Assembly: GCF_018854495.1 (NCBI RefSeq) | Contig: NZ_JABBDR010000176.1 | Span: forward strand, 1-15,873 | DNA from: Acidithiobacillus ferruginosus | GTDB taxonomy: Bacteria; Pseudomonadota; Gammaproteobacteria; Acidithiobacillales; Acidithiobacillaceae | Reading direction: 5' to 3' | Length of the DNA: 15,873 bases | Part shown: positions 3,774 through 14,188 of the stretch, one piece after another | Position numbering within the stretch: the stretch's first letter is position 1 | How the letters are laid out: the number at the start of each line of letters is the position of its first letter | Notes under the pieces: model-generated | Told to the model about the DNA's origin: nothing | The model's database searches: none | Seen by the model: the letters and a program-made list of their open reading frames with translations, nothing else | Position numbers and translations under genes: made by a program

Positions 3774-3850
3774 GGCGCTTTAGCTCAGCTGGTTAGAGCA
3801 GCGGAATCATAATCCGCGTGTCCGGGGTTCGAGTCCCTGAAGCGCCACCA
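3774..3850 (+). tRNA. tRNA with anticodon CAT (probably elongator tRNA-Met)
   Basis: A 77-base tRNA with encoded CCA. The acceptor stem GGCGCTT pairs with AAGCGCC, the D-stem GCTC pairs with GAGC, and the anticodon stem GCGGA/TCCGC closes the loop ATCATAA, giving anticodon CAT. The T-arm contains GGTTCGAGTCC. The first acceptor pair is G-C, unlike the mismatched initiator tRNA, so it is elongator Met. A lysidine-modified tRNA-Ile(CAU) is the alternative and cannot be fully excluded by eye. It marks the junction between the housekeeping flank and the restriction-modification block. Confidence 0.93.
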
Positions 3851-3890: not shown

Positions 3891-4130
3891 ATTGCCCGTG
3901 GGGGACATTGGGGGGAATCGTTCCCAGCGCCAACCGACAACCTGCAACCATCCGACTATATAATCAATAGAATAGAAAATATGATTGATCAGGACAAATG
4001 AGGTGGCACCGGTAGAACTGTAAGCACCCAAGCCATTATTGTAGGAACGGCTTTACTGCATGTTGACAATCACGATCTGGCCGCCTACGATGGTGGTTAT
4101 GTTGGATGACGTAACGGAGTTATTGCAGAT
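3891..4130. other. Non-coding, AT-rich junction between tRNA and R-M operon
   Basis: No credible gene lies here; the only long frame (3807-4031, minus) reads through the tRNA and terminator and is spurious. Visible features are a G-rich direct repeat, GGGGGACATT then GGGGGGAATC, around 3900-3920; an AT-rich stretch (3961-4020 has 22 G/C in 60 by my count) with a TATATAAT box at 3957-3964; and a hairpin at 4030-4053 (AAGCCATT/AACGGCTT, one mismatch, 8-base loop). The operon promoter at 4063-4091 closes the segment. Its position against a tRNA 3' end resembles the attachment side of an integrated element, but no integrase or second tRNA end is seen. Confidence 0.5.
4063..4091 (+). promoter_or_regulatory. 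Sigma70 promoter of the restriction-modification operon
   Basis: TTGACA (4063-4068, 6/6), a 17-base spacer and TACGAT (4086-4091, 4/6). Transcription would begin near 4098, giving a leader of about 33 bases before the ATG at 4131. It is the only good promoter I see before the long overlapping gene chain. I found no clear palindromic operator over it. Confidence 0.65.
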
Positions 4131-4712
4131 ATGGATCTGGGCAAGTTAGCCGATGTGCAGATGGGCTACCCCTTCCGGTCGCGCCTCGAGCACGACCCGC
4201 AGGGCGATGTCGCGGTGATCCAGATGAAAGACATCGACGATGTCAATCTGGTGCATACCGATGAAGCCATCAAGGTTACGTTGCCGAGGGGCAAAGAGCA
4301 TCATCTGCTGCGTGCGGGTGATCTGCTGTTTCGCTCGCGTGGTCGCAGCAACGGGGCAGCACTGGTGTCTGGCGATGTTGGAACAGCGGTCCTGTCAGCT
4401 CCGTTGCTGTTGATCCGCCCTCATGGCGTATTGCCCGACTATCTGTGTTGGTTCATCAATACGCCGGCCACTCAGGCACAGCTTGCAGCGCTGTCTGAGG
4501 GTACCTCGGTGCGGATGATCAGCGCCGAGGCACTGAAAGCGCTCGATATTCCGCTACCTACTGCGGCAGCACAGCAACGTATTGCGCAAGCCGCCGCTCT
4601 CGCTGAAAGAGAACGGTCGTTGATGGCTCAGATTGCCGCCCAGCGCCAACGATTAACGACCCACATCCTGATGCTGTACGCCCATCACATCCCGAAAAAG
4701 GCTCACCCATGA
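4131..4712 (+). CDS. Half-length type I specificity subunit (HsdS-like, one TRD)
   Basis: This 193-residue protein has a single target-recognition domain followed by one spacer helix, about half of a normal HsdS. Supporting features are the opening LGKLADVQMGYPFRSR, then IQMKDID, the HLLRAGDLLFRSRGRSNGA core strand segment, MISAEALKALDIPLPT, and a C-terminal coiled-coil-like helix from about residue 147 (AAQQRIAQAAALAERERSLM). Half-S proteins can dimerise to rebuild a bipartite recognition unit. It is clearly different in sequence from the full HsdS encoded at 7332. GGAG at 4116-4119 is 11 bases upstream of the ATG, and a stop at 4107-4109 excludes a longer gene. It overlaps hsdM by four bases (ATGA at 4709-4712), so the two are translationally coupled. 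Confidence 0.78.
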   Translation: MDLGKLADVQMGYPFRSRLEHDPQGDVAVIQMKDIDDVNLVHTDEAIKVTLPRGKEHHLLRAGDLLFRSRGRSNGAALVSGDVGTAVLSAPLLLIRPHGVLPDYLCWFINTPATQAQLAALSEGTSVRMISAEALKALDIPLPTAAAQQRIAQAAALAERERSLMAQIAAQRQRLTTHILMLYAHHIPKKAHP

Positions 4713-6268
4713 CCGACCAGCTCACCCAACAAGACGTCAACAACACCGCCTGGGCCGCCTGCGACACCTTTCGTGGCGTCATCGATCCCGCACAGTACAA
4801 GGACTACATCCTGGTGATGCTATTCCTCAAGTACATCAGCGACCAGTGGGCCGACCACTATGCCGAGTACCGGAAGGAATACGGCGACGACGAGGAGCGC
4901 ATCCGCCGCCGGCTGGCGCGCGAGCGCTTCCTCCTACCCTATGTCGAGTTCAGGGACGAGAAAACCGGCGCGGTCACCGACCGTTTCCTCGCCGACTTCC
5001 ACGCCCTGTACGAGCGGCGCAAGGCGGCCAACCTCGGCGAGCTGATCAACATCGTGCTCGACCACATCGAGGAGGCCAACAAGGCCAAGCTCGAAGGCGT
5101 GTTCCGCAACATCGACTTCAATTCCGAAGCCAACCTCGGCAAGACCAAGGACCGCAACCGCCGCCTGGAAAACCTGCTGGGCGACTTCGCCAAGCTCGAT
5201 CTGCGCCCCTCGCGCGTCTCCGAGGACGTGATCGGCGACACCTACATCTACCTGATCGAGCGCTTCGCCTCCGATGCCGGGAAGAAGGCCGGCGAATTCT
5301 ACACCCCCAAGCAGGTGTCGAAGCTGCTGGCGCAACTGGTCGCCCCCAAGCCCGGCGACCGTATCTGCGACCCCACCTGCGGCGCCGGCGGCCTGCTCAT
5401 CGAGGCGGCCGCGCTGGTGGAGCAGCAAGGCAGCCGCAACTTCGCCCTGTTCGGCCAGGAGGTCAACGGCAGTACCTGGGCGCTGGCGCGCATGAACATG
5501 TTCCTGCACGGCAAGGACGCGGCCCGCATCGAATGGGGCGACACCCTCAACAGTCCGGCGCTGGCGGAGGCCGACCGCCTGATGCGCTTCAACGTGGTGG
5601 TGGCCAATCCTCCCTTCAGCCTCGACAAATGGGGCGGCCAGGAAGTCGAGGCCGACCGTTACAGCCGCTTCTGGCGCGGCATGCCGCCCAAGTCCAAGGG
5701 TGACTACGCCTTCATCACCCACATGATCGAAACCGCGCTGCCGCAGGAGGGCCGCGTGGCCGTGGTGGTGCCCCATGGCGTGCTGTTCCGGGGCGGCGCC
5801 GAGGGCCGCATCCGAAGCAAACTGATCGAGGAGAACCTGCTCGACGCCGTCATCGGCCTGCCGGGCAATCTCTTTCCCACCACCTCCATCCCGGTCGCCA
5901 TCCTGGTGTTCGACCGTGCCCGCGAAAAGGGCGGCGCCCGCGAAGCCTGCCAGGACGTGCTGTTCATCGACGCCAGCCGCGACTACCAGTCCGGCAAGAA
6001 TCAGAACGCCCTGCTCGACGAGCACATGGCCAAGGTGCTGGCCACCTTCCGCGCCCGTGTGCCGGTGGACAAGTACGCCCATGTCGCCAGCCTGGGGGAA
6101 ATCACCGGCAACGATTTCAACCTCAACATCCAGCGCTACGTGGACACCTTCGAGGAGGAAGAAGAGATCGACGTCGCCGCCGTCGAGCAGGAGATCGAGC
6201 GCCTGGAGGGCGAGCTGGCCGAAGTGCGCCTGCGCATGAAGCAGTACCTCAAGGAGCTGGGGGTATGA
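4709..6268 (+). CDS. hsdM: Type I restriction-modification methyltransferase subunit HsdM
   Basis: This complete 519-residue N6-adenine methyltransferase subunit combines with HsdS to form the M2S modification enzyme. The helical N-terminal HsdM domain spans roughly residues 8-165. The catalytic domain follows with motif X GEFYTP (195-200), the AdoMet-binding motif I DPTCGAGGLL (221-230) and motif IV NPPF (300-303), the N6-adenine class signature. A charged C-terminal coiled coil (about 470-515, rich in E and L) probably contacts HsdS. All catalytic motifs are intact. The gene overlaps the half-S gene at its start and the RhuM gene at its end, each by four bases. A DUF1016/PglX-like methylase was considered, but length and motif order fit HsdM. 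Confidence 0.97.
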   Translation: MTDQLTQQDVNNTAWAACDTFRGVIDPAQYKDYILVMLFLKYISDQWADHYAEYRKEYGDDEERIRRRLARERFLLPYVEFRDEKTGAVTDRFLADFHALYERRKAANLGELINIVLDHIEEANKAKLEGVFRNIDFNSEANLGKTKDRNRRLENLLGDFAKLDLRPSRVSEDVIGDTYIYLIERFASDAGKKAGEFYTPKQVSKLLAQLVAPKPGDRICDPTCGAGGLLIEAAALVEQQGSRNFALFGQEVNGSTWALARMNMFLHGKDAARIEWGDTLNSPALAEADRLMRFNVVVANPPFSLDKWGGQEVEADRYSRFWRGMPPKSKGDYAFITHMIETALPQEGRVAVVVPHGVLFRGGAEGRIRSKLIEENLLDAVIGLPGNLFPTTSIPVAILVFDRAREKGGAREACQDVLFIDASRDYQSGKNQNALLDEHMAKVLATFRARVPVDKYAHVASLGEITGNDFNLNIQRYVDTFEEEEEIDVAAVEQEIERLEGELAEVRLRMKQYLKELGV

Positions 6269-7335
6269 AGAAGAAGCAGGAAATCTCTCCCGTCCGTTCA
6301 TCGGCGGCGGAGTACCTGACTTTTATCGCCGCCAGCGGCCAGGGTGGTGTGGAGGCCATTTATGCGGATACAAGCATCTGGCTGACCCAGAAGATGATGG
6401 GGGTTCTCTACGACGTGGAAACCCACACCATCAATTACCACCTGAAAAATGTGTTTGCAGACAGTGAGTTGGAGGAAGACTCAGTTATTCGAAAATTTCG
6501 AATAACCGCCGCCGATGGCAAGAGTTACCACACCCAGCACTACAACCTGGCTGCGATCATCGCTGTGGGCTACAAGGTCAACTCCGAGCGCGCGGTGCAG
6601 TTCCGCAAGTGGGCTACCGGTATCATCGAGGCGTTCACCATCAAGGCCTACGTGATGGATGACGAGCGCATCAAAAGCGGCGGCTCCATCCTTACCGAGC
6701 AGTATTTCGAAGAGCAGTTGCAGCGCATCCGGGAGATCCGCCTCTCGGAGCGCAAGTTCTACCAGAAGATCACCGACATCTACGCCACGGCGATCGACTA
6801 CGACGTGACGGCGCAGGCCACCAAGCGCTTTTTTGCCACCGTACAAAACAAGCTGCACTGGGCCATTCATGGCCAGACGGCGGCCGAGGTCATCTACCGG
6901 CGCGCCGATGCCGGCAAAGACAACATGGGGTTGACCACCTGGCAGGATGCGCCCAGCGGCAAGATTCAGAAATTCGATGTGGCGGTCGCCAAGAACTACC
7001 TGACCGAGCACGAAACGGCGCAACTCTCCCGCCTGGTCAACGCCTATCTGGATGTGGCCGAGGACATGGCCCAGCGCAAGATCCCCATGACTATGCAGGA
7101 TTGGGAAACCCGCCTGAACCGCTTCATCGAGGCCACCGACCGCAGCGTGTTGCAGGATGCGGGCAAGGTGACGGCGGAAATCGCCAGGGCACACGCTGAA
7201 AGCGAGTTCGAAAAATACCGCATCGTGCAGGACCGGCGGTTCGAGTCGGACTTTGACCGGGTGGTGAAGGCGGTTGGGAAGCTGGAGCAGACCGAGCGGC
7301 AGTTGGAAGGCCAGGGGCGGGGGAAGAAAAAATGA
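6265..7335 (+). CDS. RhuM-family protein
   Basis: This 356-residue protein matches the RhuM family, named from a Salmonella pathogenicity-island gene and frequently seen in restriction-modification loci. Its biochemical role is not established. The family core is visible as IWLTQKMMGVLYDVETHTINYHL near the N-terminus, the HYNLAAIIAVGYKVNSERAV block (about residues 93-112) followed by QFRKWAT, and a middle helical region with FYQKITDIYATAIDYD and NKLHWAIHGQTAAEVI. The C-terminal 60 residues are charged and helical. The first half resembles phage antirepressor-like, potentially DNA-interacting domains, which is an inference. No catalytic motif is recognised. AAGGAG (6251-6256) lies 8 bases before the ATG. 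It overlaps hsdM and hsdS by four bases at each end, so it is an integral member of the operon. Confidence 0.85.
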   Translation: MKKKQEISPVRSSAAEYLTFIAASGQGGVEAIYADTSIWLTQKMMGVLYDVETHTINYHLKNVFADSELEEDSVIRKFRITAADGKSYHTQHYNLAAIIAVGYKVNSERAVQFRKWATGIIEAFTIKAYVMDDERIKSGGSILTEQYFEEQLQRIREIRLSERKFYQKITDIYATAIDYDVTAQATKRFFATVQNKLHWAIHGQTAAEVIYRRADAGKDNMGLTTWQDAPSGKIQKFDVAVAKNYLTEHETAQLSRLVNAYLDVAEDMAQRKIPMTMQDWETRLNRFIEATDRSVLQDAGKVTAEIARAHAESEFEKYRIVQDRRFESDFDRVVKAVGKLEQTERQLEGQGRGKKK

Positions 7336-8528
7336 GCAAGGGCTACCCTCTAGTCCCCATTGCGTCCACCGGAGATGTTCAAGGTGGACGGCAACGATCT
7401 CCGCATATGACGGAAGGAAAGTTGGTTCCCTACCTGCGCGTCGCTAATGTCTTTGACGGATCTATAAATTTTTCAGATGTCAACGAAATGCCCTTTAAGT
7501 CGCAGGAGATTGACCGATTCCGATTAATCAAGGGCGACATACTCTTGAACGAAGGACAAAGCGTCGAACTTGTTGGTCGATGCGCGATGTTCATGGATGG
7601 ACCAGAAGACTGCTGTTATCAGAATACCTTGGTCAGGTATCGTGCTAGTCCAGAAACGGACCCTAATTTTGCTCTTCAGCTATTCCGATATTGTCAACTG
7701 ACCGGAGTCTTTTCGAAGATCGCTGTCAAGACTAATTCGATTGCGCATCTTGGTGTTTCGAGATTCGCTGAGCTTGAACTTCCCTTTCCGCCATACCAAG
7801 TCCAGAACAAGATTGCCGGGATTCTTGAGAGGTGGGACACCGCCATCCAGAAAACCGAGCAACTGATCGCGGCGAAGGAGCGGCATTACAGCCACGAACT
7901 GTCGCGCCTGATCAGCTTGGGCCAGTACCCGCATACCCATATTGGCGCCTTTGCCGAGGAAGTCTCCGCCCGCAATCGCGGCGGCAACGAGGCGCGCGTC
8001 CTGAGCGTGACCAACTCGCGCGGCTTCGTGCTGCCGGAAGACCAGTTCGAACGCCGCGTCGCCAGTGCTGACCTGTCCAATTACAAGGTCGTCCGCCGAG
8101 GGCAGTACGCCTACAACCCGTCGCGCATCAACGTCGGCTCCATCGCGCGCCTCGATGGCTGGGACCACGGCGTGCTCAGCCCCATGTATGTCGTGTTCCG
8201 GTTGGACGAGGCCAAGGTCGACTCCGACTACTTCCTGCACTGGCTGAACTCCCACGAGGCACGGCAGCGCATCAAGAACAGCGCCCAAGGCAGCGTCCGC
8301 GAGACCGTGTCCTTCTCGGAGTTCGCCGCGATCACGATTCCGCTGCTGGATAGAACCCGCCAGACTGCCGTCGCCCGCTACCTCAACGCCCTGCGCGAGG
8401 AAATCGACCTGCTCGGCCAATCCGTCGCGGCGCTCAAGACCCAGAAGCGCGGCCTGATGCAGAAGCTGCTCACCGGTCAGTGGCGGCTACATGTTTCTGA
8501 GACCGCAGAGGAGACCGCTCATGTCTAA
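7332..8528 (+). CDS. hsdS: Type I specificity subunit HsdS (two TRDs)
   Basis: This full-length 398-residue specificity subunit determines the bipartite DNA target of both methylase and nuclease. TRD1 covers about residues 1-150 (PYLRVANVFDG, IKGDILLNEGQS, HLGVSRFAELELPFPP). A central conserved helix follows (about 155-195, QNKIAGILERWDTAIQKTE). TRD2 covers about 200-345 (SPMYVVFRL, ETVSFSEFAAITIPL). The distal helix (345-390) ends in the common KRGLMQKLLTGQWR. The two halves differ in composition: 7441-7500 has 21 G/C in 60, against 37 in 60 at 8041-8100, with the change near the central helix. This suggests TRD1 was acquired by recombination. It starts within the RhuM stop (ATGA) and overlaps the HAD gene by 8 bases. 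Confidence 0.95.
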   Translation: MSKGYPLVPIASTGDVQGGRQRSPHMTEGKLVPYLRVANVFDGSINFSDVNEMPFKSQEIDRFRLIKGDILLNEGQSVELVGRCAMFMDGPEDCCYQNTLVRYRASPETDPNFALQLFRYCQLTGVFSKIAVKTNSIAHLGVSRFAELELPFPPYQVQNKIAGILERWDTAIQKTEQLIAAKERHYSHELSRLISLGQYPHTHIGAFAEEVSARNRGGNEARVLSVTNSRGFVLPEDQFERRVASADLSNYKVVRRGQYAYNPSRINVGSIARLDGWDHGVLSPMYVVFRLDEAKVDSDYFLHWLNSHEARQRIKNSAQGSVRETVSFSEFAAITIPLLDRTRQTAVARYLNALREEIDLLGQSVAALKTQKRGLMQKLLTGQWRLHVSETAEETAHV

Positions 8529-9351
8529 GAAGCTCATCCCCATAGCGATCGCCTACGACTTCGACGGTACGCTGGCGCCAGGAAACATGCAGGAATACGA
8601 CTTCATCCCCGCCTTGAACATGATGTCCAAGGAGTTCTGGAAGTCGGTTAACGAGATCGCCCAACAGCACGAAATGGATCAGATCCTCGCCTATATGTGG
8701 GCAATGCTCCGGCAAGCCGATAAAGCCGATATCCGCGTTCACAAATCAGACTTCAAGAACTTCGGGAAGAACATCACGCTGTTTCCTGGCGTTTCCGATT
8801 GGTTCAAGCGGATCAACGCCTATGCCAGGAGCAAGGGCGTCCGTCTTCAGCACTTCATTATTTCTTCCGGCATCCGCGAAATGGTCGAAGGCACACCGAT
8901 CAATAAGGAATTCAAGAAGGTCTATGCCTCCGGCTTCATGTTCGACCACAACGGCGTTGCATGCTGGCCCGCGCTAGCCGTGAACTACACCACCAAGACC
9001 CAGTACCTGTTCCGCATCAACAAGGGCAGCCTAGACGTGCATGACAACTCGGTCATCAACAAGTTCGTGCCCAAAGACCAGCGCCCTGTGCCTTTCGAGA
9101 ACATGATCTTCATCGGCGACGGTGAAACCGACATCCCGTGCATGCGGCTGGTCAAGGATCAGGGCGGTCACTCTATCGCGGTATACAACAGCAGCAAGCG
9201 CGGTGTGAAGAAGCACGCAGACCAGCTCGTCGAGAATGACAGGGCAACGCTGGCCGCACCGGCGGACTTTCAGGACGGCAGCACCATCGACGGTTGCGTT
9301 AAGGCGATTATCGACAAGGTGGAAGCTGCCGCCCGCATCCGGGGAGTATAA
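8521..9351 (+). CDS. HAD-superfamily phosphatase
   Basis: This 276-residue Rossmannoid HAD hydrolase has all core motifs: motif I YDFDGTL with nucleophile D13 and acid D15, motif II in FIISSG (S115/S116), a lysine such as K168 in RINKG as candidate motif III, and motif IV GDGETD (199-204). The insert between motifs I and II (about residues 20-88, helical) is a C1-type cap, as in phosphoserine-phosphatase-like members. Expected activity is phosphomonoester hydrolysis with Mg2+; the substrate is unknown. ATG 8521 is set by GAGGAG (8508-8513), 7 bases upstream. Its position inside a restriction-modification operon is unusual and suggests an accessory role, possibly in nucleotide or end processing (inference). 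No membrane or signal segment is present. Confidence 0.88.
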   Translation: MSKKLIPIAIAYDFDGTLAPGNMQEYDFIPALNMMSKEFWKSVNEIAQQHEMDQILAYMWAMLRQADKADIRVHKSDFKNFGKNITLFPGVSDWFKRINAYARSKGVRLQHFIISSGIREMVEGTPINKEFKKVYASGFMFDHNGVACWPALAVNYTTKTQYLFRINKGSLDVHDNSVINKFVPKDQRPVPFENMIFIGDGETDIPCMRLVKDQGGHSIAVYNSSKRGVKKHADQLVENDRATLAAPADFQDGSTIDGCVKAIIDKVEAAARIRGV

Positions 9352-9353
9352 CC

Positions 9354-9456
9354 ATGGACAGTTTCCGCTTCGACGAAAAATACCTCTCCCAGATCCCGGC
9401 TCTGCAGGTGCTGGTCAACCTGGGCTATCAATACCGGACGCCCGCCGAGGCACTGG
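9354..9456 (+). repeat. Direct repeat, copy 1 (hsdR start, upstream of fic)
   Basis: These 103 bases match 10251-10353 with 7 mismatches by hand alignment, about 93% identity. Six of the seven differences are at third codon positions. Similarity ends sharply after this stretch. Confidence 0.85.
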
Positions 9457-9506
9457 TCGGCGGGTGGCAGCAGCTTCTTGCTGAAGGAGATGATGAACAT
9501 GTCTGA
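9354..9506 (+). pseudogene. Truncated duplicate of the hsdR 5' end (50-codon ORF)
   Basis: The first 34 or so codons repeat the start of the full hsdR at 10251, with one visible amino-acid change (Arg for Leu at residue 28). The frame then runs into unrelated sequence and stops with TGA at 9504-9506, giving 50 residues. GGGGAG (9341-9346) is well placed 7 bases before the ATG, so the stub is probably translated and keeps what looks like the native hsdR ribosome site. It starts two bases after the HAD stop and overlaps the fic start by 8 bases. It therefore could relay ribosomes from HAD to fic. It is too short for nuclease activity. Remnant versus functional relay peptide cannot be decided here. 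Confidence 0.85.
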
Positions 9507-10251
9507 ACTCGACTCCCTCCTGGCGCAAATCGACGGCCTGAAAACCCGGCTCGATGCCGCCCGCCCCCTGACCAGCGAGCAGTTGCAGCAGGCGCTGGAC
9601 ATCGAATACACCTACGAGAGCAACCGCATCGAGGGCAATACGCTGACCCTGCGCGAGACCGATCTGGTGGTCAACAAGGGACTGACGGTTGGCGGCAAGT
9701 CCATGCGTGAGCATCTGGAGGCCATCAATCACTACGAGGCCATCCTGTATATCCGCGAGCTGGCAGCCAAGGGCGCGACGTTGGACGAACGCGAGGTGCG
9801 CAATGTTCATGCGCTGGTGCTGCGCGGCATCGACAGGGAAAACGCGGGACGCTACCGCAACTTGCCGGTGATGATCGCCGGCAGCCGTCATGTGCCGCCG
9901 CAGCCATGGGCCGTACCCAAGCTGATGGAGGACTACGGGCTGTGGCTCACCGGCGAGTCATTGAAACTGCACCCGGTGGTGCGCGCCGCCGAGGCGCATG
10001 AGCGGCTGGTGACGATACATCCGTTCATCGACGGCAATGGTCGCACGGCGCGACTGGTCATGAACCTGATCCTGCTGGCCAATGGCTATGTTATCGCCAA
10101 TATCCCCGGCGACACCGACAGCCGCCGTGCTTATTACGATGCGTTAGAAAGGGTCAATCTGGAGGGCGATAAGACAGACTTCATCAACCTCATCGCCGGG
10201 CATGTGCTGCACGCCATGCAAATCCTGCTGGAACGTCTCGGGGTGGCGTGA
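9499..10251 (+). CDS. fic: Fic-domain protein, class II (probable AMP-transferase)
   Basis: This complete 250-residue Fic enzyme has the catalytic loop HPFIDGNGRTAR (residues 174-185, H174), an exact match to HxFx(D/E)GNGRxxR, so it should transfer AMP from ATP to a protein hydroxyl. An N-terminal inhibitory helix is present as SNRIEG (S41 to E45-G46), matching (S/T)xxxE(G/N). This makes it a class II, self-inhibited Fic that needs no separate antitoxin. The N-terminal Fic_N region covers about residues 25-75. Start choice: ATG 9499 sits 9 bases after AAGGAG (9484-9489); ATG 9490 and 9493 are too close. Its stop overlaps the hsdR ATG by one base (TGATG). The target protein is unknown. Its place between the two hsdR starts indicates later insertion. 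Confidence 0.93.
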   Translation: MSELDSLLAQIDGLKTRLDAARPLTSEQLQQALDIEYTYESNRIEGNTLTLRETDLVVNKGLTVGGKSMREHLEAINHYEAILYIRELAAKGATLDEREVRNVHALVLRGIDRENAGRYRNLPVMIAGSRHVPPQPWAVPKLMEDYGLWLTGESLKLHPVVRAAEAHERLVTIHPFIDGNGRTARLVMNLILLANGYVIANIPGDTDSRRAYYDALERVNLEGDKTDFINLIAGHVLHAMQILLERLGVA

Positions 10252-10353
10252 TGGACAGCTTTCGCTTCGACGAAAAATACCTCTCCCAGATCCCGGCGCT
10301 GCAGGTGCTGGTCAACCTGGGCTACCAGTACCTGACGCCCGCCGAGGCGCTGG
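10251..10353 (+). repeat. Direct repeat, copy 2 (start of full hsdR)
   Basis: The partner of the repeat at 9354-9456. This copy continues into the intact hsdR frame. The two copies bracket the fic gene at a distance of 897 bases between their starts. Confidence 0.85.
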
Positions 10354-13300
10354 CCGCGCGGGGCGGCAAGGCGGGCAATGTGCTGCTGGACGAGATCCTG
10401 CGCGAGCAGTTGAAGAAGCTGAACCGCATCCAGCACAAAGGCGGCACCTACCTCTTCAGCGAGGAGAACATCCAGAGCGCCATCCAGCGGCTGAAGAACG
10501 TGAAGTACGACGGCCTGCTCAAGACCAACGAGGCGGTCTACGACCTGCTGACACTGGGCGTGGCGCTGGAGCAGTCCGTTGAGGGGGACCAGAAGAGCTT
10601 CACGCTGAATTACGTCGACTGGCGCAATCCACAGAACAACGTCTATCACGTGGCCGCCGAGTTCGCGGTGGAGCGCACCCGTAGCGTCGAGGCCTGCCGG
10701 CCCGACATCGTGCTGTTCGTCAACGGCATCCCTTTCGCGGTGATCGAGTGCAAGTCGCCCAAGGTTGAGGTGGCCCAGGCCATCTCCCAAACCATCCGCA
10801 ACCAGCGCGACGAGTACATCCCGCGCCTGTTCACCACCGTGCAGACTGTGCTGGCGGTGAACAAGAACGAGGCCCGTTACGCCACCACCGGCACCCCGGC
10901 CAAGTTCTGGTCGAAGTGGAAGGAGGACGTGGCGGACGCCGACCTGGCGCCCCTGCTGGAATGCCCGCTGCCGGAGTCGGTCAAGGCCTCGCTGTTCGAT
11001 TTGGCCTTTGCCGAGCTGGGCGTGCGCGAGGAGGTGGCGCCTTACCTGGTGGGCCGACAGGTGACCGAGCAGGACCGCGCGCTCTACGCCCTGTGCCGCC
11101 CGCAGCGCCTGCTGGAGATGGCCTGGGCCTTCACCGTGTTCGACGGCGGCGTGCGCAAGATCGCGCGCTACCAGCAGGTGTTCGCCATCCGCGAGGTGCT
11201 CGCCCGGGTCAAACAGACCGACGACAGCGGCAAGCGCCGGGGCGGCATCGTCTGGCACACCCAGGGCTCGGGCAAGTCGCTGACCATGGTGATGCTGGCG
11301 CGCGCGCTGGCGCTGGAGCCGGCCATCCGCAATCCACGCATCGTGCTGGTCACCGATCGGGTGGACCTGGACAAACAGCTCGGCAACACCTTCGCCGCCT
11401 GCGGCCTCTCGCCCGACCGGGCCGAGAGCGGCCGCCATCTGGTGGAACTGGTGGCCGACGGCAAGGCACACATCGTCACCACTCTGGTGCACAAGTTCGA
11501 CAAGGCGCTGGCCTACAAGAAGTTCAGCGATGTTTCGCCCGACATCTTCGTGCTGGTGGATGAGACCCAGCGCACCCAGTTGGGCGGCTACTCGGCGCGC
11601 ATGCGGCAGATGTTCCCCAATGCCTGCTACATCGGCTTCACCGGCACGCCGCTGCTGACCCGCGAGAAGAGCGACGTGGCCAAGTTCGGCGGCGTGATCC
11701 ACACCTATGCCATCGACCAGGCGGTGGCGGACGGCGCCATCGTGCCGCTGCTCTACGAAGGGCGCATGGTGGAGCTGGAGCAGAACCAGACGGCCATCGA
11801 CATCTGGTTCGAGCGCCACACCCAGGGACTGACCGACCAGCAGAAGGCCGACCTGAAAAAGAAGTACGCCCGCGCCGAGATGCTGAACAAGGCCGAGCAG
11901 GTGATCTACATGCGCGCCTTCGACATCAGCGAGCACTACCGCCAGAACTGGCAGGGCACCGGCTTCAAGGCGCAACTGGTGGCGCCCAACAAGGCGGCGG
12001 CGTTGCGCTACAAGGCGTTTCTGGACGAGCTGGGGGCGGTCACCAGCGAGGTGATCATCTCGCCGCCAGACGAGCGCGAGGGCTTCGACGAGATCGACGC
12101 CGAGGAATCCACCGATGCGGTGGTGGCCTTCTGGCAGCGCATGATGAAGCGCTACGGCTCGGAGGACGACTACAACAAGCAGGTCGTCAACGCCTTCAAG
12201 TTCGGTGACGAGCCCGAGATCCTGATCGTGGTGGACAAGCTGCTGACCGGCTTCGACGCGCCGCGCAACACGGTGCTCTACCTCGCGCGGCGGCTCAAGG
12301 ACCATACCTTGCTGCAGGCCATCGCCCGGGTAAACCGCCTGTACGAGGATGAGTCTGGTGCCAAGGTCAAGGACTTCGGCTTCGTCATCGACTACGTGGG
12401 CGTGCTGGGCGAGCTGGACCAGGCGCTGAGCACCTACAGTGCGCTGGAAGGCTTTGAAGCGGCGGATCTCGAGGCCGCGCTGACCTCGATTCACGAAGAG
12501 ACCAAAGCCCTGCCGCAGCGCCACGCCGAGCTGTGGGACCTGTTCAAGACGGTGAAGAACCGCCAGGACGAAGAGGCTTTCGAACAATTGCTGGCCGATG
12601 AGAAGCTGCGCGCCGGGTTCTACGAGCGGCTGTCGGCCTACGCCAAGACCCTGGCCATCGCGCTGTCCAGCGAACGCTTCATCACCGACACGCCCGAGCA
12701 GAAGCTGCGCGCCTACAAGAATGATCTCAAACGCTTCGTCAATCTCAAGGCGGCGGTGAAGCTGCGCTATGCGGAATCCGTGGACTACCGCGATTTTGAG
12801 CCGCGTATCCAAAAGCTGCTGGATACGCACATCTCGGCCTCCGAGGTGGTGCAGTTGAATACGCCGGTAAACATCTTCGACGAGGCCGCGTTCCAGAAGG
12901 TGGTGGAGGAGCAAGGCGCGGGCAGCGAGAAGACCCTGGGCGCCAAGGCCGACATGATCGCCCACGCCACCAAGCGCGCCATCAACGAACGGCTGGAGCA
13001 GGACCCGGCCTTCTACGAGAAGTTCTCCAGACTGATCCAGCAGGCCATCGACGACTATCGCGCCAAGCGCCTGTCCGATCTGGAGTACCTGCAGCGGGTC
13101 ACCGAGATCAAGGATGTGGTGGTCTCCCGCAAGGGCGATGACCTGCCGCCTCTGCTGGCCGAAGACGCTGACGCGGCCGCCGTCTATGGTCTGCTGCGCC
13201 CCTTCGTGGCGAGCCACCTGAGCGACGCCGAGCAGACACAGACGACCGCCGCCGAAGCCGCCAAGGCGGTGTGGGACATCTTCCGGCGCAACCGCAAGGT

Positions 13301-13466
13301 GGGCTACTGGGATGACCTCGACGCCCAGCGCCGGACGATGAACGAGATCGACGACTACCTCTATGACGAGGTGAAGAGCGCGCGGGGTATCGCGCTGTCC
13401 ACAGAAGAGATGGACGAGATCATCGAGAAGACGATGCAGCTCGCCCGCCACCGGATGGCAGGGTGA
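10251..13466 (+). CDS. hsdR: Type I restriction endonuclease subunit HsdR
   Basis: This full-length 1071-residue translocating nuclease subunit joins M2S to form the restriction complex. The nuclease domain carries PD-(D/E)xK residues as D152 (RPDIVLF) and E166-C-K168 (AVIECKSP). The SF2 motor follows: Walker A HTQGSGKS (336-343), motif II VDETQRTQ (D437-Q440), motif III FTGTP (463-467), motif V VVDKLLTGFDAPRNTVLYL (661-679) and motif VI QAIARVNR (689-696). A helical C-terminal region from about 740 binds the methylase core. Motif II reads DETQ, where many HsdR have DExH. Its ATG lies in the fic stop codon, without a good ribosome site of its own, so its translation may depend on fic. Confidence 0.97.
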   Translation: MDSFRFDEKYLSQIPALQVLVNLGYQYLTPAEALAARGGKAGNVLLDEILREQLKKLNRIQHKGGTYLFSEENIQSAIQRLKNVKYDGLLKTNEAVYDLLTLGVALEQSVEGDQKSFTLNYVDWRNPQNNVYHVAAEFAVERTRSVEACRPDIVLFVNGIPFAVIECKSPKVEVAQAISQTIRNQRDEYIPRLFTTVQTVLAVNKNEARYATTGTPAKFWSKWKEDVADADLAPLLECPLPESVKASLFDLAFAELGVREEVAPYLVGRQVTEQDRALYALCRPQRLLEMAWAFTVFDGGVRKIARYQQVFAIREVLARVKQTDDSGKRRGGIVWHTQGSGKSLTMVMLARALALEPAIRNPRIVLVTDRVDLDKQLGNTFAACGLSPDRAESGRHLVELVADGKAHIVTTLVHKFDKALAYKKFSDVSPDIFVLVDETQRTQLGGYSARMRQMFPNACYIGFTGTPLLTREKSDVAKFGGVIHTYAIDQAVADGAIVPLLYEGRMVELEQNQTAIDIWFERHTQGLTDQQKADLKKKYARAEMLNKAEQVIYMRAFDISEHYRQNWQGTGFKAQLVAPNKAAALRYKAFLDELGAVTSEVIISPPDEREGFDEIDAEESTDAVVAFWQRMMKRYGSEDDYNKQVVNAFKFGDEPEILIVVDKLLTGFDAPRNTVLYLARRLKDHTLLQAIARVNRLYEDESGAKVKDFGFVIDYVGVLGELDQALSTYSALEGFEAADLEAALTSIHEETKALPQRHAELWDLFKTVKNRQDEEAFEQLLADEKLRAGFYERLSAYAKTLAIALSSERFITDTPEQKLRAYKNDLKRFVNLKAAVKLRYAESVDYRDFEPRIQKLLDTHISASEVVQLNTPVNIFDEAAFQKVVEEQGAGSEKTLGAKADMIAHATKRAINERLEQDPAFYEKFSRLIQQAIDDYRAKRLSDLEYLQRVTEIKDVVVSRKGDDLPPLLAEDADAAAVYGLLRPFVASHLSDAEQTQTTAAEAAKAVWDIFRRNRKVGYWDDLDAQRRTMNEIDDYLYDEVKSARGIALSTEEMDEIIEKTMQLARHRMAG

Positions 13467-14173
13467 AGACGATGACCGGAACGCTGACCTACGGCACCGA
13501 CAATATCCGTTACGAGGTGCGCTTTCTGGCATCGCGGCAGACCCTGGCCATCGAGGTCCACCCCGACAGCCGCGTGTTGGTACGCGCGCCGGTCGATTGC
13601 CCGGAGGCATTGATTGCGGAGCGGGTGCAGAAGCGCGCTGCATGGATCAGCCGGCAACTGGCCGAGTTCGAGCGCTATCGCCCCCGCACTCCGGCGCGGC
13701 AGTACGTCAACGGCGAATCGCACCTATACCTCGGCCGGCAATATCGGCTGAAGCTGTTGCCGGGCGAAATGCCCAGCGTAACGCTCGCACGCGGCCGGCT
13801 TCTCGTCTGCCTGCCCGGCGAACCAGACCCGGAGCGCGTGAAGGCGCTGCTGCACCGCTGGTATCTCGACTGCGCCCGGGCTGTTTTCGGTGAGGTGTTG
13901 GAGGCCGGGCTGCTCCACTTCAAGGGTATCGAACACCCGCGCCTCATCGTGCGCGCCATGCGGTCGCGCTGGGGTAGCCTTTCCCGCGCCGGGACCATGA
14001 CCCTGAACGTCAACCTGGTGCGCGCGCCCCGCCCCTGCATCGAGTACGTGGTGATCCACGAGCTCTGCCATATCAAACACCGCGACCACGATGCGCGGTT
14101 TTTCAAGCTGCTGGGTCAGGTGATGCCCGATTGGGAGCAGCGCAAGCAGCGACTGGAAGCGGCGCTACTGTGA
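13463..14173 (+). CDS. YgjP/SprT-like zinc metallopeptidase (DUF45)
   Basis: A zinc-metallopeptidase-fold protein of 233-236 residues. The catalytic motif is HELCH (H196, E197, H200 when numbered from ATG 13472), followed by KHRDH with a likely third ligand H206, and the conserved MRSRWGSLSRAGTMTLN block (163-179) typical of YgjP/WLM-like proteins. The start is either GTG 13463, making a four-base overlap (GTGA) with hsdR in the style of this operon, or ATG 13472 with AGGGTGA 5 bases upstream. Such genes are often found next to hsdR, but their role in restriction is not established; proteolysis of DNA-bound restriction complexes is one possibility (inference). It is the last gene of the operon, ending 15 bases from the convergent SIMPL gene. 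Confidence 0.9.
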   Translation: MKTMTGTLTYGTDNIRYEVRFLASRQTLAIEVHPDSRVLVRAPVDCPEALIAERVQKRAAWISRQLAEFERYRPRTPARQYVNGESHLYLGRQYRLKLLPGEMPSVTLARGRLLVCLPGEPDPERVKALLHRWYLDCARAVFGEVLEAGLLHFKGIEHPRLIVRAMRSRWGSLSRAGTMTLNVNLVRAPRPCIEYVVIHELCHIKHRDHDARFFKLLGQVMPDWEQRKQRLEAALL

Positions 14174-14188
14174 CAACTGTCCCATACC

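Follow-up and report, generated by a model that had tools for sequence, protein, structure and literature searches.

A type I restriction-modification operon with two cargo slots and a probably chimeric mini-ORF behind a tRNA gene of Acidithiobacillus ferruginosus

The 15,873-nucleotide stretch of Acidithiobacillus ferruginosus DNA analysed here, hereafter the window, carries nine genes in a row on its plus strand. A half-length specificity gene (half-S, 4131–4712), which encodes a single-TRD specificity-like protein of 193 aa, is followed by hsdM for a type I N6-adenine methyltransferase (4709–6268), a RhuM-family gene (6265–7335), hsdS for a full-length specificity subunit with the C-terminus QKRGLMQKLLTGQWRL (7332–8528), a gene for a HAD-superfamily hydrolase (8521–9351), a mini-ORF of 50 aa that we call the stub (9354–9506), fic (9499–10251), hsdR for the restriction and translocation subunit (10251–13466) and a gene for a YgjP-like, M48-type metallopeptidase (13463–14173). 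This order is the one that an earlier note had read, and its junctions were confirmed as well: ATGA overlaps at 4709, 6265 and 7332, 8-base overlaps at 8521 and 9499, a 2-base gap at 9352, TGATG at 10249 and GTGA at 13463. We took 10251 as the start of hsdR, which the ORF listing begins at GTG 10248.

Pfam gave a domain name for every product except the stub: Methylase_S for half-S and HsdS, N6_Mtase and HsdM_N for HsdM, Virulence_RhuM, PF12710 for the HAD protein, a Fic domain, HSDR_N, SWI2_SNF2 and T1R_D3-like domains for HsdR, and YgjP-like for the metallopeptidase. PADLOC matched half-S to Specificity_I (PDLC03199) over residues 1–189 and HsdS over residues 25–387, and gave the stub a weak type I REase match (residues 7–35, 17.7 bits). 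Together, Pfam and PADLOC identify an HsdM with its N6-methylase, an HsdS and an HsdR with nuclease and SWI2/SNF2 motor, and both restriction and methylation activity are predicted. The accessory genes are nested in the type I R-M operon and coupled to it along the strand, as the earlier note had held, and all three are PADLOC defence candidates: PDC-S05 (RhuM), PDC-S34 (HAD) and SoFic/PDC-S04 (Fic).

The operon starts about 280 bases downstream of a tRNA-Met (CAT) gene called by ARAGORN at 3774–3850 on the plus strand. A sigma-70-like promoter candidate with 10/12 consensus matches does stand at 4063–4091 on the same strand, where the earlier note had placed its one good promoter; it is weak evidence, since three such sites occur over both strands, of which this is the coding-strand one, against 2.1 expected by shuffling. 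The nine genes are presumably co-transcribed. Two genomes of the same genus, G011 and G014, have both flanks in common with the window and differ in content (loci L294 and L295 were noted at the tRNA-Met site). From the ARAGORN call and this flank comparison, the tRNA gene is likely an island boundary. The site behind it is variable in the genus, with the window's operon here, a different type I R-M system in G011 and other genes in G014.

Half-S, hsdM, hsdS, hsdR and YgjP form a recurring type I R-M chassis with two variable slots, slot 1 between hsdM and hsdS (RhuM in the window) and slot 2 between hsdS and hsdR (HAD as first and fic as second cargo). A HAD profile built from six sequences matched at least 480 relatives across the genome collection, of which we kept the best 80, each with flanks of up to 10 kb; loci were annotated by longest-ORF calls with profile guidance, which makes the gaps between genes approximate. 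In 23 of these best 80 of at least 480 HAD loci, the hsdR of a type I operon lies no more than five genes downstream of HAD; L084 was left out because its R-M pieces are only 42 and 46 aa. YgjP follows hsdR in all 23, hsdM is on the contig in 20, and half-S lies upstream of hsdM in each of those 20 (labelled in 18 of the 23 layouts, found by tblastn in L052 and L066). Hosts include Gallionella, Chlorobiaceae, Pseudomonas, Geobacter, Nevskia, Verrucomicrobiales, Alphaproteobacteria and Bacteroidales. In a search anchored on hsdM, 14 of 398 genomes passed E 1e-150, the window's own included, and the 13 others were fetched. HAD was present in none of the 13 loci, and slot 2 was occupied in 10 of the 12 with an hsdS label (empty in L128 and L129; L133 has no such label and hence is outside the 12).

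The slots hold a broad range of genes. Slot 1 contains RhuM, Bro-N or ORF6N genes, with Fic in L092 and an unnamed gene in L070. For slot 2, Pfam matches above cut-off identified DUF3800 (L027, L092, L127, L134, L229, L246, L250), Abi_2 (L130, L135, L138 and, before hsdR, L133), SMODS (L070, L251), Shedu SduA (L058), OLD-like or other AAA genes (L090, L247, L250, L251), neighbours of fic (AAA and RloB-like in L131, DUF559 in L141) and single instances of DUF6119 (L126), DUF6161 (L035), DUF1016/YhcG (L137), UPF0149 (L132) and an IS200-like transposase (L028). RhuM itself was found in slot 2 in L028, L033, L035 and L136.

A SMODS nucleotidyltransferase gene lies between a HAD or AAA gene and hsdR in L070 (10954–12272) and L251 (1194–4428), and in L251 a weak SLATT_4 match beside it makes a CBASS-like pair nested in the R-M operon. 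In L131 (14289–16773), AAA_21 and RloB-like genes and fic precede hsdR; we take the AAA_21/RloB-like pair to resemble a PARIS-type pair, nested with Fic.

Rank correlations of pairwise distances with those of hsdM were 0.89 for hsdR (40 loci), 0.77 for YgjP (39), 0.64 for half-S (32), 0.57 for hsdS (39), 0.47 for HAD (22) and 0.39 for RhuM (22). The low values at the HAD and RhuM end are as expected under more exchange, and faster evolution would look similar. Judged by its sequence, half-S is a conserved chassis gene and no decayed hsdS, and it may provide a second methylation specificity. Half-S is 94% identical to its counterpart in L229 and 78% to that in L041, with only 60% and 34% for hsdS.

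The HAD protein carries the motifs DxDx(T/V) and GDGxxD, with D13/D15 and G199–D204 invariant in 32 sequences. Its structure model (pLDDT 92.8) has cytosolic 5'-nucleotidase III (cN-III) and SerB-type phosphatases as best Foldseek matches at TM ~0.5–0.57, which is why we consider it likely to be a small-molecule phosphatase; a nucleotide-depleting role is possible. The HAD profile had no match among sequences of solved structures, and none of 142 pattern-matching stretches in viral contigs was confirmed as HAD. By the labels used, 57 of the best 80 of at least 480 HAD loci lie outside such an R-M operon; R-M fragments or isolated R-M labels occur near HAD in L031, L047, L080, L081, L084 and L101. 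In L029 and L030 the neighbours of HAD look housekeeping-like by eye. The presence of the family among such genes outside R-M operons argues that it is not purely a defence family. Members outside R-M operons (L029, L030, L038 and others) reach identities of up to 71%.

Fic proteins share the consensus HxFx(D/E)GNGRxxR and, where an inhibitory N-terminal motif is present, (S/T)xxxE(G/N). The translation of the window's fic contains IHPFIDGNGRTARL and an N-terminal SNRIEGN. The closest solved relative is FICD (E 3.5e-38), to which both motifs align, with TVAIEG opposite SNRIEG, and the protein is probably a self-inhibited, FICD-like AMP-transferase. For fic, the 80 loci kept from viral contigs reach a best identity of 56%, all 42 plasmid records are below 60%, and the DNA of 9340–10520 has three partial fic matches in plasmids.

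That HAD and fic form a matched set was not supported. An intact fic (at least 200 aa) occupies slot 2 in 3 of 46 chassis layouts, those of the window, L131 and L141; the latter two have fic without HAD, slot 2 never contains an intact fic in the 23 other HAD loci linked to R-M, and the window is the only one of the 46 layouts with both. A search anchored on fic passed 7 of 369 genomes at E 1e-30, the window's own included, and of the six others only L141 is a chassis locus. We rejected HAD and fic as a conserved pair on these grounds and regard them as one combination from a menu. As for the recurrence of the whole gene set, the full set is intact in no other locus read, and the set minus fic does recur in L018 and L041. 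L028 has a 61-aa fic remnant (10848–11033, 24.8 bits) between HAD and RhuM, whose position suggests an earlier HAD-fic neighbourhood that was later displaced.

A near-identical operon lies at L229, in another genome of the same genus. Its DNA is 94.2% identical to the window over 3961–7335, 94.6% over 10259–14176 and 89.2% over 7833–8505. Its hsdS has no match to the window in the first TRD, and its slot 2 contains DUF3800 in place of HAD, stub and fic. In L041, from Nevskia, HsdR is 92% and HAD 88% identical to the window's proteins. There, as in L018, HAD lies directly upstream of hsdR, and the gap between them in L041 is the same two bases (CC) that separate HAD from the stub in the window. 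At positions that distinguish the stub from hsdR, the L041 codon is in some cases that of the stub and in others that of hsdR.

The stub has two parts, HsdR codons 1–34 (about 9354–9455) and an HsdS-like tail (about 9456–9503), and it ends over the start of fic (overlap 9499–9506). The name hsdR stub given by the earlier note fits its first 105 bases, 97 of which are identical to the hsdR start; with its HsdS-like tail, the ORF is no plain hsdR duplicate. Scored as an HsdS C-terminus, the tail itself reaches 0.9 bits, a value also reached by 2 of 50 shuffles, and it is not above zero in the profile test of 108 tails described below. We read its putative HsdS origin through relatives that share both ends with it (P0008, P0012–P0014, P0158).

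A protein database search with the stub yielded 31 short proteins. Fourteen of them (P0001–P0014) have the HsdR part in common, and their last residues are GDDEHV or GDDEHA; their N-termini fall into four kinds, namely MDSF or MDSI, MTDSDAH, MTNPNDHN and MSTPD. Two of these kinds also start intact hsdR genes, in L229 (HsdR N-terminus MTNPNDHNSEAAF) and in L246 (MSTPDASQ), so one tail stands behind several hsdR N-terminal variants. Chassis HsdS proteins typically end in LMQ(K/Q)LLTG and QWRL or similar. We scored 108 stub-type tails with a profile of chassis HsdS C-termini, taking as the line the score below which 99.5% of 21,600 shuffles fell, and 13 passed (P0008, P0012–P0014, P0018, P0025, P0026, P0152, P0156, P0158, P0160, P0169, P0222). 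P0024, P0153, P0163 and P0173 have HsdS-like tails by eye and are either below this line or outside the scored set. The join of an HsdR N-terminus to an HsdS C-terminal tail is clear in P0026, P0158, P0160, P0222 and others; in the first three, the HsdR part runs into KT(R/Q)K..LMQ. Relatives ending in GDDEHV carry GQWRLP, and P0158 carries KTRKRDLMQRRLTGQWR before GGNEHV. Such chimeras are found repeatedly in protein databases, with joins at several points and several variants of the hsdR N-terminus. P0171, P0177 and P0217 show another kind of seam, in which the HsdR N-terminus continues into a DUF3800 C-terminus of the type present in L229 (five-sequence set, E 6e-8 to 1e-9), and by eye P0019 and P0172 join an HsdR N-terminus to an HsdR C-terminus.

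P0001, which is identical to the window's stub, occurs on 13 contigs. The longest reaches 2.9 Mb, an argument against an assembly error. P0032 (a fic product, 93%), P0152 and P0158 each have a longest contig of 17454, and equal figures recur for P0014/P0045 (3647), P0028/P0034 (4268) and P0019/P0036 (1748); such proteins likely lie on shared contigs. The stub is present in 1 of the 46 chassis layouts, and its protein had no match in plasmids. As DNA, no second stub-fic locus was found among 31 genomes of the order, 369 and 312 of the class (overlapping draws) and 8 from the order of G674; in these searches the stronger matches, the ones followed, were hsdR starts. In the other chassis loci, tblastn and a motif scan revealed no additional HsdR start or HsdS end; the sole exception is L066, whose native hsdS end lies beneath a HAD call.

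We think it fairly likely that the stub is the seam of an unequal recombination that stacked HAD and fic in slot 2 of this chassis, a route that we infer from the anatomy. An allele hsdS-HAD-hsdR would have been joined, near hsdR codon 34, to the hsdS 3' end of a second allele hsdS-fic-hsdR, giving hsdS-HAD-[hsdR'::'hsdS]-fic-hsdR; in such seams the partner could also be the 3' end of another cargo gene. The join would leave an hsdR start after HAD and cover the start of fic with an end of the hsdS type, and chained translation would be preserved. This reading is supported by HAD between hsdS and hsdR in 23 of the best 80 of at least 480 HAD loci, all with YgjP, and by the slot-2 cargo of 10 of 12 hsdM-anchored loci. 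The swap of slot 2 in L229 inside flanks of 94.2% and 94.6%, together with the CC gap shared with L041, supports it as well, as do the 13 of 108 stub-type tails that pass as HsdS C-termini and the three HsdR-N/DUF3800 joins. Against it count the weak score of the window's own tail (0.9 bits) and the lack of a second stub in the other chassis loci read. No donor allele hsdS-fic-hsdR with closely similar sequence turned up, L131 and L141 being distant, and metagenome chimeras could mimic some of the joins. The 97 of 105 identical bases would also fit an hsdR start that was simply duplicated in tandem when fic inserted, followed by a tail from no specific source, and the tail in the window is only weakly HsdS-like; GQWRLP in the GDDEHV-ending relatives, and KTRKRDLMQRRLTGQWR before GGNEHV in P0158, make this explanation unlikely.

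Two further readings assign the parts a dedicated function. In one, the stub would work as a peptide: resembling the HsdR N-terminus, it could act as a decoy, compete for the M2S core and so delay restriction. In its favour, the HsdR part is highly conserved, and in 14 related stubs (P0001–P0014) the frame is open and the end is shared. We hold this to be very improbable, as only 1 of the 46 layouts read contains the stub, its tails and join points vary, and coupling alone accounts for the open frame. The other is the layered system proposed in the earlier note, in which R-M, HAD, Fic and RhuM would be a co-evolved unit made in fixed ratio, with restriction first and a Fic shutdown second. Continuous short overlaps between genes favour it, every accessory family is a PADLOC candidate, and the nested DarTG2 of the RRDM island shows that such combinations can protect (PMC12255303). 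However, HAD and fic occur apart in slot 2, slot content is swapped in the near-identical operon L229, and HAD tracks hsdM less (rho 0.47) than do hsdR (0.89) and YgjP (0.77), which leaves a co-evolved unit with little probability.

In the reading as a recombination seam, the R-M enzymes would methylate host DNA and cut unmodified DNA, the HAD protein is probably a small-molecule phosphatase, and Fic, probably a self-inhibited AMP-transferase, would act as a second layer of a putative phage defence. Speculatively, and with considerable doubt, type I R-M operons may be platforms for stacking cargo, in which hsdR 5' ends and hsdS (or cargo) 3' ends are recurrent joints that leave translated hsdR::hsdS mini-ORFs. 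The direct repeats of about 105 bases in stub and hsdR would then permit deletion or swap of fic by homologous recombination, making a defence layer switchable, and a free HsdR-N peptide might tune assembly of the restriction complex.

We know of no account of how several defence genes are stacked without breaking a tightly coupled R-M operon. Seam ORFs would record the stacking in the sequence itself and help to find further stacked loci, and because the window and L229 are nearly identical, the cargo swap can be tested directly on this pair. A 2024 preprint by Payne et al. is said, by its title, to concern new defences embedded inside known immune systems. In the literature searched, which mostly excludes subscription papers and preprints, we found no description of seam ORFs. 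The PADLOC families PDC-S34, PDC-S05 and PDC-S04/SoFic match the window's proteins strongly; they are single-gene candidates and silent on operon or seam.

A half-length specificity subunit also occurs in the type I system NgoAV, where the truncated HsdS results from a frameshift (PMC9577141); the operon of the window instead opens with half-S as a gene of its own and also has a full-length hsdS. The nearest known arrangement is the RRDM island of enteropathogenic E. coli, which comprises RptR, a type I R-M system, DarTG2 and an M48 gene and for which phage protection has been shown (PMC12255303, as for the following comparison). Its order, hsdM-hsdS-[darTG2]-hsdR-M48, matches the order hsdM-hsdS-[cargo]-hsdR-M48/YgjP of the window, with cargo between hsdS and hsdR, a junction that is called a potential recombination hotspot there. 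Defence genes nested at this position are already known. The RRDM island begins with RptR (79 aa), whereas half-S comes first here and no plus-strand ORF of at least 60 aa starts between the tRNA gene and half-S; its cargo is DarTG2, whereas the window has HAD and Fic, RhuM in a further slot and a chimeric seam ORF. Relative to that account, what is new at this locus is the half-S gene in first position, the stacking of HAD and Fic, and the proposed seam ORF.
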